NCBI GenBank assembly: GCA_009602725.1
Contig: WELB01000242.1
Span: forward strand, 43,025-72,855
Length of the DNA: 29,831 nucleotides
Source: Spirogloea muscicola
Lineage: Eukaryota > Streptophyta > Zygnematophyceae > Spirogloeales > Spirogloeaceae
Direction of reading: 5' to 3'
In this document: positions 7,981 through 23,803 of the stretch, piece after piece
How the letters are laid out: the number at the start of each line of letters is the position of its first letter
How positions within the stretch are numbered: the first letter of the stretch is position 1
The notes under the pieces: generated by a model
The model's input: the letters and a program-made list of their open reading frames with translations, nothing else
What the model was told of the DNA's origin: nothing
Database searches by the model: none
Made by a program: the position numbers and the translations under genes

Positions 7981-8269
7981 TCAAGGATCGACTGGCGATC
8001 CCTGAAGCGAATTGTAGTGGCACGTACTAGACTGACATGTGCAACCATCAGGCTCGCATCCACCTGGTCCTCCATTACAGTTACCAGCTGTGCAGATTGT
8101 ACATGCAGCACCGTCCTTGTAGCTGTCGTCGCACCGACCTGCACCATCACACTGTGGACAGCACTCCTTGCTCTCGCACAGATAGTCTTTGGTGTCATAC
8201 ATCAACAAATAGTCCTGGCAGAGAGTGCCGGCCGGCTTAAAGCTCTGCACATTGCTGCATTCTCCATTG
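7981..8269 (-). other. Last exon of the minus copy: large cysteine module
   Basis: 289 nt, the same length as the plus-copy last exon, and open to the TGA at 7983-7981. It begins NGECSNVQSFKPAGTLCQDY and contains ECCPQCDGAGRCDDSY, then CTAGNCNGGPGGCEPDGCTC. The acceptor is TACAG at 8270 and following. Sixteen cysteines in under 100 residues imply a disulphide-rich extracellular domain. The spacing faintly recalls disintegrin/ADAM-type cysteine-rich domains, but I would not assign it. Confidence 0.8.
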
Positions 8270-8482
8270 CTGTAAATACAATTGAAAATATATGATAATA
8301 TTAAGCAGTATATGCCAAGTCATACTTGGCAGTCACACGGGAAGTAACAATCATCTTGCAATACTTGAACTTGGAATCTCACCTACAGATGCAATGCAGC
8401 AGGTTACCTGATAGTACGAGATGCAAAAGGAGAGAGCCACAATGGCAAAGTGCATATATAGGGTGACAACGCCAAAGCTTAC

Positions 8483-21500: not shown

Positions 21501-23803
21501 TGCTTTGCAAGCAGACCTCTGACGAAAATTAGCAGTTCACCAGGGTCATTGACAATCTTCTGAGCAGCATGTGCTGCTGTACAGCAATGGGACATGTGGT
21601 TTCAAGCAGTTCTACAACTCTTCCAGAGATTGCAGGCCCAACAGCCAGAACATCAATTGCTCCAGCTTACATTGCAAGTAAGACATCTGTCTCAATTCCA
21701 GACATTTCAGCAACGGCAAGTACGGACCTTGATCCAAAGCAAAGCAGACTGCCCAAACCAGTCAAAGTAGGATGCAACTTGGTCTCACAGCAACGACTGT
21801 TTTTGCTTGAGCAGCGGAACAGGATATTGCACAGTCCGAAAAACTACGCCAATGGAGCCAAGTGTTTCATCCAATACAGTGATGACTGCGCAAATCTGAC
21901 TTGTTTGTGAGTACATGCTTGGCCTCCCTTGCTCAAGAGCATGTTATTCCTACGAATCAACTTTGCTTGGGCCCAATCACCAACTCTGTGAGCAGATTAT
22001 CTTTTCTGCTGAGAGGACCTCATTGTCGAGTCCAGGTATCTCTGGCAGCATGCAATGTGCTTAATGCTTAACAGACAGCTAATAGCATGACTCATTAATG
22101 TAATGAGCAATAGTAGCTGTGCAAGGAGGATGTTAACAGGAGAATTCAGAAGCCATTGCACATGGGATAAGGCCAGCGGTGATGACCCTCATTTGTGGGC
22201 TTCCTGCAGGAATGGGGTCTGCCACGGGAGTTACAATGGTAGGACAGCTTGCCAGCCCGGCTTCTACCCAACCACATTCCAGATCTACTTTGACTACACT
22301 GGTTATTACTCTCCCTACTATCAATATTATGTAGAAGGGCCACCTACCCCCAGCGTGTGCAACACTTATGCGTGCAACGCCACAAGTGGAGCGTAAGTAA
22401 CTTGCCTGCAGCTTCCGGTGGTCAACTTAGCCAGCAGCTTCACAACCACAACAATCTGTCCAGATTGCTTCACGATGTATGGCTGGAGTCGTCAAGCTGT
22501 GCTTGATAAGGAGCGCTCTCTGTAATTCTGCTGATAGTTTCTGCTGATATTGTGTACTCTGCGCAGTAATGGTACCGCCTTCTGCCAAGAGCACTCGACT
22601 CCAATCACAACACCATGTGAAAGTGTTGGGGAATGCAGCTCCGTCTATCATTGCAGGTGTGTCACAGTAGCCCTGCATGCCCCGATTGACACGCTCAAGT
22701 TTCTCTCTTGCTTAGGACCGGCATCGTATGTCTAAGCTGTGTGATGTCAGCCTTTTGGAATCGAGTGAGCATCAGGCCTCATGATCACAATACCTTTGGG
22801 TAGACTGCATATGGAACGCAGTCACTTGCTGTGATAGCATTGGGTGCAATTAGTGCTTGACGTCAAATTGGATGTGCCACTGGCTAAGCAAAGTGCTGTG
22901 ACTAACGTGCTTCAGTTCTGGGGCGTGCTTTTCGTTGCAACAACGTTGCAGGGATGGCTTCTGTGATCATAGTCAAACATACAACTCACCAGACGGCACG
23001 GGCTGTGGTCCAGTAGGGAAAACCTGCACCAAAAAGCAATGCAGGTGCTGCTCTGACTTCCTCTAACCAGGCTCCTCCTCGTGTTGACCCCCCCTTCTTG
23101 GCCCGCAGACTCCAGCAGCCAGCACAACCAAGGCCCATTTGCAAGATTATTGGGTTTGCGTTCGTGTTACACTGTGCTGAGCTTGCACTGTGGTCGATGG
23201 CCAGGCAGGGCAATTGCGAGGTCGTGGAAGTCTATCCGAATGGCACTTTCTGCGATACAAATGAGGCCAGCCCTTACTCCATTGATCCTAAGTGCCAGGT
23301 CAACTCGTGCAAGTAAGCATCGTCACCATTACTTCAGGAGCAGTGCTTCTTGCCTGTGGGTCTCTACTTCATCTCAACCTGTTGCTTAAGTTTAGGTTGT
23401 AGTACGGAAACGTCACGTTTGCATGAAGAAGTGTGATTGCCTTGAAATGTGGCCGGCATGTACTTGCCCAGCAATGCTGCACATAGTGAGTCCCATTCCA
23501 ACTCGCATACACAGCAATGGAGAATGTACCAATGTGGTCAGCATCAAGCCGGCCGGCACTTTATGCCAAGACTACGGTTTCATGTACTTCTCCAAATTGT
23601 ATCAATTTGGAAGCGACGAGTGCTGTCCTCACTGTGATAGTGCGGGCCAATGCGACGAGAGCTACAAGGGTGGTCAAGCATGTACCAAATGCACAGCTGG
23701 AAATTGTAACGAAGGGCCAAGCAGTTGCGAGCCTGACGGTTGCACTTGCATCTCTAGTGAATGTGTTTACAACTCGCGTGTAGGTTCACTGGTTGCTCCT
23801 TGA
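15107..23803 (+). CDS. LRR plus cysteine-module secreted protein, plus copy (disrupted)
   Basis: Predicted exons: 15107-15248 (signal peptide), 15375-15528 (LRR N-cap), LRR exons 15769-15840, 15987-16058, 16172-16243, 16559-16630, 16760-16828, 17035-17112, 17289-17360, 17629-17697, cap 17847-18052, then cysteine modules 21585-21677, 21815-21906, 22210-22392, 22567-22656, 22952-23044, 23205-23312 and 23515-23803. The ATG context is ideal (GCCACCATGG). All junctions from the N-cap to the cap keep phase 2, and no stop falls in the LRR half. Four modules present in the minus copy are missing; 18.2-21.5 kb holds a CT tract and retroelement pieces instead. The 21815 exon is 92 nt against 93 in the minus copy (one A lost from an A run). 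The product would be extracellular. LRR domains of this type bind peptides or wall ligands in plants, but the ligand here is unknown. Confidence 0.75.
15769..18052 (+). other. Eight LRR exons and cap exon, plus copy
   Basis: Each LRR is one exon of 69-78 nt (mostly 72), always phase 2 to phase 2, with the core N-x-L-x-G-x-I-P. Examples: YLYGNRLIGAIPSSIGNL, LDHNFLTGSIPSGITKLS, DFSYNNLTGLFPSDLAFC. The sixth (17035-17112) keeps SHNKLTG but ends in an atypical stretch. The last exon (17847-18052) encodes DVSFNKFQGGFPLDL, then IDVSYNYLVGSAP and a Cys-containing cap with SNNCF and ASACAAL. Confidence 0.88.
18236..18636. repeat. Long (CT)n microsatellite ending in an N
   Basis: Pure TC dinucleotide repeat from about 18292 to 18635 (~340 bp), preceded by imperfect CTC/TCGC units, closed by an N at 18636. 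It lies after the LRR cap exon, where the minus paralogue has its GA/CT tract. Its true length is uncertain because the N sits at its end. All long Ser-Leu or Arg-Glu ORFs here are artefacts. Confidence 0.95.
18640..19467 (+). mobile_element. LINE C-terminal fragment (copy e)
   Basis: Begins just after the N with GAAAWLSALPICDALRMPDD, parallel to TPGATDWL in copy d. Then QQCECGE, an in-frame TAG at 18805, AAHMLRC (completing the CCHC-like finger), RHADLVAS, LIADVVTTDCFD, RRYSDHP, VDVHGAFG and the family end LLIRGY, with the stop at 19465-19467. Apart from the TAG the frame is intact for ~275 codons. The RLE-like D...D...K spacing is visible. It is 5'-truncated and sits inside the plus LRR gene. 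Confidence 0.82.
19555..19830 (+). repeat. Tandem cluster of hairpin repeat units
   Basis: At least three diverged units in a row: CCTTTTGGGGCTGGCTTTTC with CGCAGCCC; GACTTTGTCCATTCCGTGGG with GCTGGCCTCTCACAGCCACC; then GGGCTGGCTTTGCCAGCCC with CTCTTCTCTATGGGCGAGCA. CTGGGAGAGCCAC and similar words end each unit. The cluster starts about 90 bp after the stop of LINE copy e. Confidence 0.82.
19831..20211. other. No gene; contains a dispersed GCGCGGTGCGCATGA repeat
   Basis: Nothing coding recognised. At about 19917-19965 a stretch with GAGAGAAAGG, GCGCGGTGCGCATGA and GGAGGCCAATGG resembles 28823-28862 inside an RLCK intron, so a second, unnamed repeat family is present. Confidence 0.5.
20212..20408 (-). 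repeat. Minus-strand hairpin units
   Basis: One partial unit at 20212-20245 (minus: GCCAGCCTCTCTTCTCGACG then GGCGAGCACTTTCTTTC) and a second at about 20345-20408 (minus: TTGGACCTTGACCATTCCAT then CTTGGGTTGGCTTTCCC). The second lies just downstream of LINE copy f in the same orientation. Confidence 0.65.
20409..20759 (-). mobile_element. LINE C-terminal fragment with candidate 15-bp target-site duplications (copy f)
   Basis: On the minus strand: IDVHGAFGSGWLDLLQRLAR, then GFNAAGSLSQVFRMRL, then SDLLLLTRGF, with the stop at 20449. Very similar to copy a. The fragment is bracketed by CAAATAGATGGATGG at 20409-20423 and again at 20745-20759, a perfect 15-bp direct repeat that looks like a target-site duplication. 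If so, the insert is about 320 bp, strongly 5'-truncated, with only ~25 bp after the stop. Confidence 0.72.
20790..20895 (-). repeat. Minus-strand hairpin unit
   Basis: Minus reading: CGACCATTCTTTTCTCGGCT, GGCTCTTCACAGCCACTGCC, then a GGCCGGCCTTGTTGACGAGG stretch. A diverged member of the dispersed family. It lies in the retroelement-filled gap of the plus LRR gene. Confidence 0.6.
20977..21193. repeat. Second copy of the 217-bp duplicate (partner of 14741-14957)
   Basis: Co-linear with 14741-14957 with one difference seen. It ends abruptly at TTTGGGCT, immediately before the LINE head fragment at 21197. Confidence 0.85.
21197..21365 (+). mobile_element. LINE fragment from the region upstream of the RT
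   Basis: Translates as GLHNLRHIPKWARRG, VLTPILSRVEADPLDETAWA and LYLLFPKT. A segment of the form 'RHIP...-L...-P.....AW..L.LFPK' commonly precedes the reverse-transcriptase domain of algal and plant LINEs, as I recall the family. The remainder of the element is absent: the sequence after ~21365 loses the match. Frame is intact over 55 codons. Confidence 0.5.
21585..23803 (+). other. Cysteine-module exons of the plus copy
   Basis: Seven exons match the last seven of the minus copy: 21585-21677 (NGTCGFKQFYNSSRDCRP), 21815-21906 (frame broken by 1 nt), 22210-22392 (NGVCHGSYNGRTACQPGFYP, Tyr/Pro-rich), 22567-22656 (NGTAFCQEHS..., ECSSVYHCR), 22952-23044 (DGFCDHSQTYNSPDGTGCGP), 23205-23312 (VVEVYPNGTFCDTNEASP) and 23515-23803 (ECCPHCDSAGQCDESYKGG, then CEPDGCTC, with the stop at 23801). 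Five of the seven lengths equal the minus counterparts. The three-nucleotide difference in the Tyr/Pro exon keeps frame. Confidence 0.8.

Follow-up and report, generated by a model that had tools for sequence, protein, structure and literature searches.

The window, a 29,831-nucleotide stretch of Spirogloea muscicola DNA, raises the question whether two divergent sets of exons, each with leucine-rich repeats (LRR) at one end and a chain of cysteine modules at the other, belong to real genes that join both halves, and what kind of protein such genes would encode.

Two divergent arms in the window

Arm A occupies 14737-7981 on the minus strand and arm B 15107-23803 on the plus strand, with a single exon order common to both (Table 1). 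A tblastn search of arm A against the window gave collinear matches on the opposite strand from the signal/N-cap exon through the last cysteine exon, and together with gap-free family copies elsewhere this bore out the head-to-head paralogues proposed in a preliminary description. The shared order held for the exons present; it did not hold in full, as M1-M3 were found in arm B neither by tblastn nor by an exon scan (18052 to 21585) and several exons are damaged. In arm A, the LRR3 acceptor carries one extra base, the M2 donor reads AT, M8 is short by one base, and LRR6 has a GG acceptor and a broken frame. Our exon models returned the equal lengths claimed earlier for arm A and arm B (C-cap 206/206 nt, last exon 289/289, M4 93/93, M7 90/90, M9 108/108) and eight LRR exons per arm, most of them 72 nt long and in phase 2-2. 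Both arms terminate at a stop codon 12 residues past the last cysteine and, with frames read to that stop, neither continues into a transmembrane segment or kinase, as had been described.

Table 1 Exons and other features of the two arms (positions in the window)
Feature	Position	Strand	Remark
Arm A signal-peptide exon remnant, end RRLLAASPD	14699..14737	-	truncated close to an N of the assembly at 14740
Arm A LRR N-cap exon	14412..14574	-	phase 1 to 2; tblastn and exon model
Arm A LRR exons 1-8, whole block	12110..14142	-	tblastn and exon model
Arm A LRR exons 1-4	14071-14142, 13851-13925, 13647-13718, 13248-13319	-	
Arm A LRR exons 5-7	13051-13119, 12747-12828, 12464-12535	-	LRR6 (second) broken
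Arm A LRR exon 8	12110-12193	-	GC donor; end placed by eye
Arm A LRR C-cap exon	11675..11880	-	206 nt; phase 1 at end
Arm A cysteine exons M1-M7, whole block	9184..11128	-	
Arm A M1-M4	11032-11128, 10691-10801, 10384-10500, 10155-10247	-	M2 (second) donor lost
Arm A M5-M7	9931-10023, 9467-9646, 9184-9273	-	
Arm A M8 and M9	8732-8823, 8483-8590	-	M8 one base short
Arm A last exon M10	7981..8269	-	289 nt; stop at end
Arm B signal-peptide exon (MAPPALLVAFTVAIAAAA...NPD)	15107..15248	+	phase 1 at end; fits N-cap exon
Arm B LRR N-cap exon	15375..15528	+	
Arm B LRR exons 1-8, whole block	15769..17697	+	
Arm B LRR exons 1-4	15769-15840, 15987-16058, 16172-16243, 16559-16630	+	
Arm B LRR exons 5-8	16760-16828, 17035-17112, 17289-17360, 17629-17697	+	LRR6 (second) end placed by eye
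Arm B LRR C-cap exon	17847..18052	+	206 nt; phase 1 at end
Arm B interruption	18053..21584	+	holds a (CT)n tract, an N of the assembly at 18636 and a remnant resembling a retroelement
Arm B cysteine exons M4-M9, whole block	21585..23312	+	
Arm B M4-M6	21585-21677, 21815-21906, 22210-22392	+	M5 (second) one base short
Arm B M7-M9	22567-22656, 22952-23044, 23205-23312	+	
Arm B last exon M10	23515..23803	+	289 nt; stop at end

Synonymous divergence between the arms (dS = 0.78, as against 0.13-0.14 in two homeologue pairs of the genome) ruled out an assembly mirror as their origin, sustained the earlier reading of an old inverted duplication and supports a split that would predate the divergence of the homeologues. 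The accompanying claim that the introns do not align stood only in part: intron lengths are alike and aligned blocks extend into introns, their alignment being partial (3092 aligned bases, 1490 of them exonic, the remainder outside exons and partly in a (GA)n/(CT)n tract). The Ka/Ks comparison gave dN/dS = 0.31 for 502 codons from 13 exons, a set that omits the signal exon, LRR6, LRR8, M1-M3, M5 and M8; this value supports past selection on the protein, as had been suspected from the substitutions between the arms. A tree placed the copy C99:65668 among arms A and B (support 0.505), so the arms are not necessarily each other's closest kin. Of 120 last-exon pairs, the 14 with dS < 1.2 were used for pairwise comparison.

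Linkage of LRR and cysteine exons across the genome

Single Ns of the assembly, at 11497 in arm A and 18636 in arm B, separate the LRR exons from the cysteine exons, so their linkage had to be shown elsewhere in the genome. Four loci (C16, C244, C92 and C107) contain all 20 exons in order in DNA with no N inside, which places both halves in one gene. C16 splices into one 709-residue frame; C244, C92 and C107 were assembled by exon chaining, which accepts stop-free exons only, so that the absence of stops is built into these three models. Chaining on the coding strand recovered 20/20 exons with scores of 1647-3128, compared with 3-4 exons on the wrong strand (75-85) and 1-4 exons in nine shuffles (19-90). 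The chained models of LRR6 in C107 (141 nt), LRR7 in C92 and C107 (90 nt in both) and M1 in the same two loci (scores 22 and 23) are doubtful. In arm A and C16, the C-cap ends and M1 starts in phase 1.

Genome-wide searches pointed the same way. The last-exon search returned 22 rows, of which 17 loci (E <= 1.6e-10) were kept for the cap-proximity count and 19 for the cap-to-module count; 58 rows were returned for the LRR cap and 33 loci kept (E < 1e-4), and a further family search returned 70 rows, of which 27 were kept (26 at E < 1e-13, plus a weaker match on C77). A co-oriented cap lay <=7 kb upstream of 9/17 last exons, against a chance of 0.00075 each under even placement, and module matches followed 23 of the 33 caps. 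If two genes, one for LRRs and one for a cysteine array, had been joined by eye or by the assembly, the Ns in both arms would be explained, as would the 8/17 last exons that have no cap within 7 kb upstream and the 10/33 caps that have no module match downstream. Against this reading, which we regard as scarcely credible, stand the four gap-free loci with matching exon phases and a single terminal stop. Moreover, two of the eight cap-less last exons (C99:65668 and C289) lie behind assembly gaps, and one of the ten module-less caps (C357:11581) proved to have modules when its sequence was fetched. In C238 an N immediately precedes M6, and C137 starts near a contig end; C99:65668, C289, C238 and C137 were therefore rejected as cysteine-only genes. 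The last exons at C75 (no LRR found in 10 kb read), C357:38169, C69 and C20:1147668 have no visible LRR and are not accounted for by gaps or a contig end. The undamaged copies thus confirm the LRR and cysteine-tail architecture as real and as that of one gene family, and the arms in the window are two damaged members of this large, apparently unnamed family.

The predicted protein and its cysteine modules

Members of the family share a layout of N-cap, eight LRRs, C-cap, ten cysteine exons with 49-50 cysteines, and an early stop. Judged by its sequence, the LRR half is an ordinary plant-type LRR. In Pfam searches of the C16 protein, LRR_1, LRR_8 and LRR_4 exceeded the cut-off and LRRNT_2 (19.5 bits) fell slightly below it (20.7); PDB sequence matches of the LRR part were plant LRR receptors (best), polygalacturonase-inhibiting protein (PGIP) and LRR-extensins. 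The query for both searches was short by one residue at the start of M8. A stop followed within 24 residues of the last cysteine in 15/17 loci, a count in which the reading of arm A (L010) followed the wrong strand, its stop being taken separately, and L026 is frameshifted. No transmembrane segment was seen by eye after the LRR in arm A, the 17 last-exon loci or C16, and no kinase followed in frame.

The preliminary description knew of no named plant family with this architecture, and nothing convincing emerged from Pfam, NCBIfam, PDB sequences or the open-access papers listed. Pfam matched 0/16 last exons and no part of the C16 cysteine array at E <= 1, and 19 single modules yielded two weak, unrelated matches. 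The cysteine part had no match among PDB sequences; of 16 last exons, NCBIfam matched a single one, spuriously. A search for relatives in GTDB genomes and IMG/VR found 54 and 58 pattern-matching stretches, none of which passed, and the structure predicted for the last exon was too uncertain to use (pLDDT 45). Among the matches listed for open-access literature on algal LRR, cysteine-rich, receptor and extensin proteins, a description of the family was absent. A KPAGTLC...ECC stretch, which we take to be superficially disintegrin-like, would favour a degenerate ADAM/disintegrin relative or another known cysteine-rich domain; given the Pfam and PDB results for last exons, C16 array and single modules, this is very improbable and disintegrin descent is unsupported. 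A genome search with PF00200 carries no weight either way, since its controls also lacked a match.

Cysteines in M2-M9 follow the spacing C-x9-14-C-x5-24-C-x4/5-C, with one M4 copy short of a cysteine, and in two homeologue pairs 49/50 and 50/50 aligned cysteines were retained. Module 6 is Tyr/Pro-rich and was the fastest exon in the homeologue comparison, a signal that comes from two pairs only and is modest after correction (0.033); the per-exon rates and the module 6 test omit LRR6, which the totals include. It is conceivable, if rather unlikely, that the array represents a new streptophyte-alga extracellular module family, undescribed as a protein class, in which a fixed cysteine frame would present the diversifying module 6 loop. 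Joined to a plant LRR head, such an array would serve in recognition or cross-linking and would have expanded to tens of loci in a sister lineage of land plants.

Proposed function and comparison with known systems

We infer, with a confidence just short of even, that the family to which the two damaged arms belong encodes secreted wall or mucilage proteins working like LRR-extensins, in which a disulphide rod carries the LRR head. The proteins would be exported from the cell, the cysteine modules would form a stiff rod held together by disulphide bonds, and the head may bind a peptide or polysaccharide ligand. The rod would anchor this head in the wall or in mucilage. Anchoring might proceed via the module 6 loop, cross-linkable by analogy to extensin tyrosines; such cross-linking is only a guess, as the loops of six copies contain 0-2 YxY motifs each. 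Assessed by hydrophobicity, a signal peptide lies in frame in arm B only. Hydrophobic starts lie upstream in C92, C107 and C244, but no in-frame connection to the conserved exon end LLA.HPD could be made, and C16 shows no start codon in the frame of that exon end; the secreted, anchored reading is therefore held less firmly.

A freely diffusing immune or inhibitor protein, PGIP-like or receptor-like-protein-like, that expanded by birth and death, binds microbial enzymes or ligands and works via a partner kinase, is possible but unlikely. Clustered copies on C20 and C99, damaged copies, an alignment of PGIP (1ogq) that spans residues 2-286 in the LRR part of C16, dN/dS of 0.46-0.75 in recent pairs and the fast module 6 are consistent with it; yet a PGIP-like role needs no long conserved cysteine tail, and in neither homeologue pair did the LRR exons together evolve faster than the cysteine exons. 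The fast loop within a fixed cysteine frame and the numerous paralogues would also suit a cell-cell or mating recognition protein with the array as stalk and the loop as specificity part, an improbable role given that nothing ties the genes to reproduction. If the extensin-like reading is true, an alga near land plants has a large family that combines a standard plant LRR head with a matrix tail built of a cysteine module not listed in Pfam. Beside LRR-extensins and receptor kinases, this would be a second solution for extracellular LRR recognition, and the origin of plant wall signalling would become testable in a small genome.

Animal Slit, in which LRRs precede a chain of disulphide (EGF) modules and which is secreted to the matrix, differs in LRR type and module and offers an analogy only. 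DUF26 receptor kinases and WAK/EGF proteins carry cysteine-rich modules on the plant surface; the family differs from both in the M2-M9 spacing and in having no Pfam match to either domain in last exons or the C16 array, and from DUF26 kinases in having neither a stress-antifungal domain match nor an in-frame kinase. With LRR receptor-like proteins and receptor kinases, its best PDB matches, it shares plant-type LRRs, an N-cap and the 72 nt, phase 2 exons of plant LRRs, but not a transmembrane segment, cytoplasmic tail or kinase. PGIP has a similar LRR length and terminates after the LRR cap, whereas the family adds about 390 residues with 49-50 cysteines, encoded at four loci by ten in-phase exons past the C-cap. 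LRR-extensins (LRX/PEX) differ in the tail, which in the family consists of cysteine modules, extensin Ser-Pro repeats being absent from the spliced C16 protein. LRX proteins are secreted and wall-anchored and, like the family, join a plant LRR head (PDB matches 6qwn, 6tme and 6qxp) to a C-terminal extension outside the membrane; the functional parallel would be a ligand-binding LRR held by matrix, not membrane.

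Exon architecture and condition of the two arms

The two divergent paralogues of the window, arms A and B, point away from one another (see table). In the exon models, a signal-peptide exon is followed by the N-cap, eight LRR exons (mostly 72 nt, phase 2-2), a C-cap exon of 206 nt ending in phase 1, and the cysteine exons M1 (phase 1 to 2), M2–M9 (2-2) and M10, the last exon (289 nt). These models agreed with the exon lengths of the preliminary description. Its statement that the introns do not align had to be revised, as their lengths are similar between arms and they can partly be aligned at about 70%. 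In arm B, the signal peptide reads in frame into a phase-1 donor. Between the C-cap exon and the first cysteine exon found, each arm carries a (GA)n/(CT)n tract.

Features of the window
Feature	Position	Strand	Remark
Arm A	14737 to 7981	minus	exon-by-exon match with arm B
Arm B	15107 to 23803	plus	exon-by-exon match with arm A
(GA)n/(CT)n tract	11357-11583 (arm A), 18214-18635 (arm B)		assembly N in each
Near-identical stretches	14750-14956, 20986-21192		one adjoins N at 14740
Kinase-like gene	25800-29650	minus	20 protein letters not shown, then ...STRVMGT
Retroelement-like gene, repeated reading frames	5637-6980, 1-490, 18640-19467, 20449-20766		
Possible secreted protein gene	1136-2225		MDFLLAVALVLALTASASATC...

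Both copies are damaged in the assembly. In arm A, the signal exon is cut, the LRR3 acceptor carries one extra base, LRR6 has lost acceptor and frame, M2 lacks a donor and M8 is short by one base. In arm B, M5 is short by one base, and M1–M3 are missing; a retroelement-like remnant lies in that place, together with an N and a (CT)n tract. Because of this damage and of single Ns at 11497 and 18636, which separate the LRR half from the cysteine half in each arm, their link could not be proven from the window alone. The near-identical stretches represent either an assembly artefact or a recent repeat. M6, M7 and M8 of arm B (22210-23044) are 100% identical to C238:113391-114222, near an N in that contig, while M9 and M10 share only 94% and 91%; the assembly is collapsed here or gene conversion has occurred.

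Among the neighbouring genes, the kinase-like exons, which we take to be a receptor-like cytoplasmic kinase gene, gave singly only kinase matches under the Pfam cut-off; a second copy is found on C238 (86–88%). The retroelement-like frames end, for example, in LTRGY, LIRGY or LTRGF; the longest had no Pfam match, and the C238 copy is 92% identical. The putative secreted protein matched nothing above the Pfam cut-off.

Undamaged copies and the extent of the family

The proposed joining of an LRR head to cysteine modules was confirmed in copies of 20 exons free of N on four other contigs. C16 holds a single unbroken frame of 709 residues from N-cap to stop, and chaining with its exons recovered all 20 in order on C244, C92 and C107. 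Since the method admits only stop-free exons, controls were run: the coding strands of three loci gave 20/20 exons (scores 3128, 1674 and 1647), the wrong strand 3–4 (75–85) and nine shuffles 1–4 (19–90). The LRR plus cysteine-module architecture is well supported.

C92, C107 and C244 each have the conserved exon end (LLA.HPD, donor GTGAG) and, 5′ of it, a hydrophobic start, but no single exon brings the two into one frame; no start codon was seen in the signal-exon frame of C16. Of 17 last-exon loci, 15 have a stop within 24 residues of the frame's last cysteine, the other two being arm A's locus, read on the wrong strand in this count, and a frameshifted one (L026); arm A ends likewise. As described earlier, neither a transmembrane segment nor a kinase continues these frames.

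Within the genome, the last exon had 22 matches at E ≤ 1 (17 at E ≤ 1.6e-10) and the C-cap 58 (33 at E < 1e-4). A co-oriented C-cap, each with an N-cap, lay within 7 kb upstream of 9/17 last exons and none of the other eight; the chance for one last exon is 0.00075 if caps are evenly spread, an assumption broken by clustering on C20 and C99. Modules from C274 recovered a second tail class. With both classes counted, 23 of 33 C-caps had a co-oriented module match no more than 7 kb downstream (nine of class 1 and 14 of class 2, one tail of the latter being scored for two adjacent caps). Among the ten caps without a match, C357:11581 holds modules in the fetched DNA. Three tails chosen for an absent last-exon match (L034–L036) all contained modules, and L034 and L035 also end in a terminal exon with a stop. 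Upstream on the window's contig, a further relative (L008:1526-3250; C242:34550-36274) consists of an LRR cap and a short cysteine array that ends at a stop.

Divergence and selection

The Ka/Ks comparison suggested in the preliminary description yielded a dN/dS of 0.31 between arms (13 exons, 502 codons; dS 0.78), with 0.33 for the LRR and 0.28 for the cysteine part, and single exons ranging from 0.12 (M9) to 1.08 (M7). The homeologue pairs C16/C244 and C92/C107 showed dS of 0.14 and 0.13 and dN/dS of 0.75 (691 codons) and 0.46 (728 codons), the former value indicating weak or mixed selection on C16/C244. Aligned cysteines were kept in 49/50 and 50/50 cases, respectively. Across both pairs, M6 had 30 amino-acid changes against 3 silent ones, compared with 224 against 118 in the remaining exons (Fisher p 0.0017; 0.033 with 19-fold correction); no other exon was significant after correction. 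In all six measured copies, Tyr and Pro are abundant in the M6 loop.

Among last-exon pairs, 14 of 120 had dS below 1.2, with dN/dS of 0.14–0.66. The last-exon tree grouped both arms with C238 and the long-branched C99:65668 (support 0.994) and left a sister relation of A and B unsettled (0.505). Triplets such as C92/C107/C137 and C289/C357/C69 agree with a triplicated Spirogloea muscicola genome, as described in PMC7994812.

Cysteine modules and proposed mode of action

In four copies, M2–M9 follow the spacing C-x9-14-C-x5-24-C-x4/5-C, except for M4 of C16 with one cysteine fewer; most modules open with G-x-C. The spacing recurs at the start of the last exon, which then continues with ten further cysteines. 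In the C16 protein, 49 cysteines fall within 394 residues, and the total of N-glycosylation sequons is 18. Pfam at E ≤ 1 yielded no family for the cysteine array or last exons; 19 single modules gave two weak matches to unrelated families, 16 last exons one spurious NCBIfam match, and the cysteine part none among PDB sequences. Searches of GTDB genomes and IMG/VR yielded no confirmed relative.

The protein is likely exported with its LRR head secreted; the cysteine modules may form a disulphide rod carrying this head, which would bind a ligand. Judged by its sequence, the LRR half is ordinary: plant LRR receptors make up almost all of the best 60 of its 202 PDB matches, which also include PGIP and LRR-extensins. 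LRR-extensins are anchored in the wall, and extensin tyrosines are cross-linked. By analogy, the most likely arrangement would be a secreted LRR head on its rod, retained in the cell wall or in mucilage in the manner of LRR-extensins.
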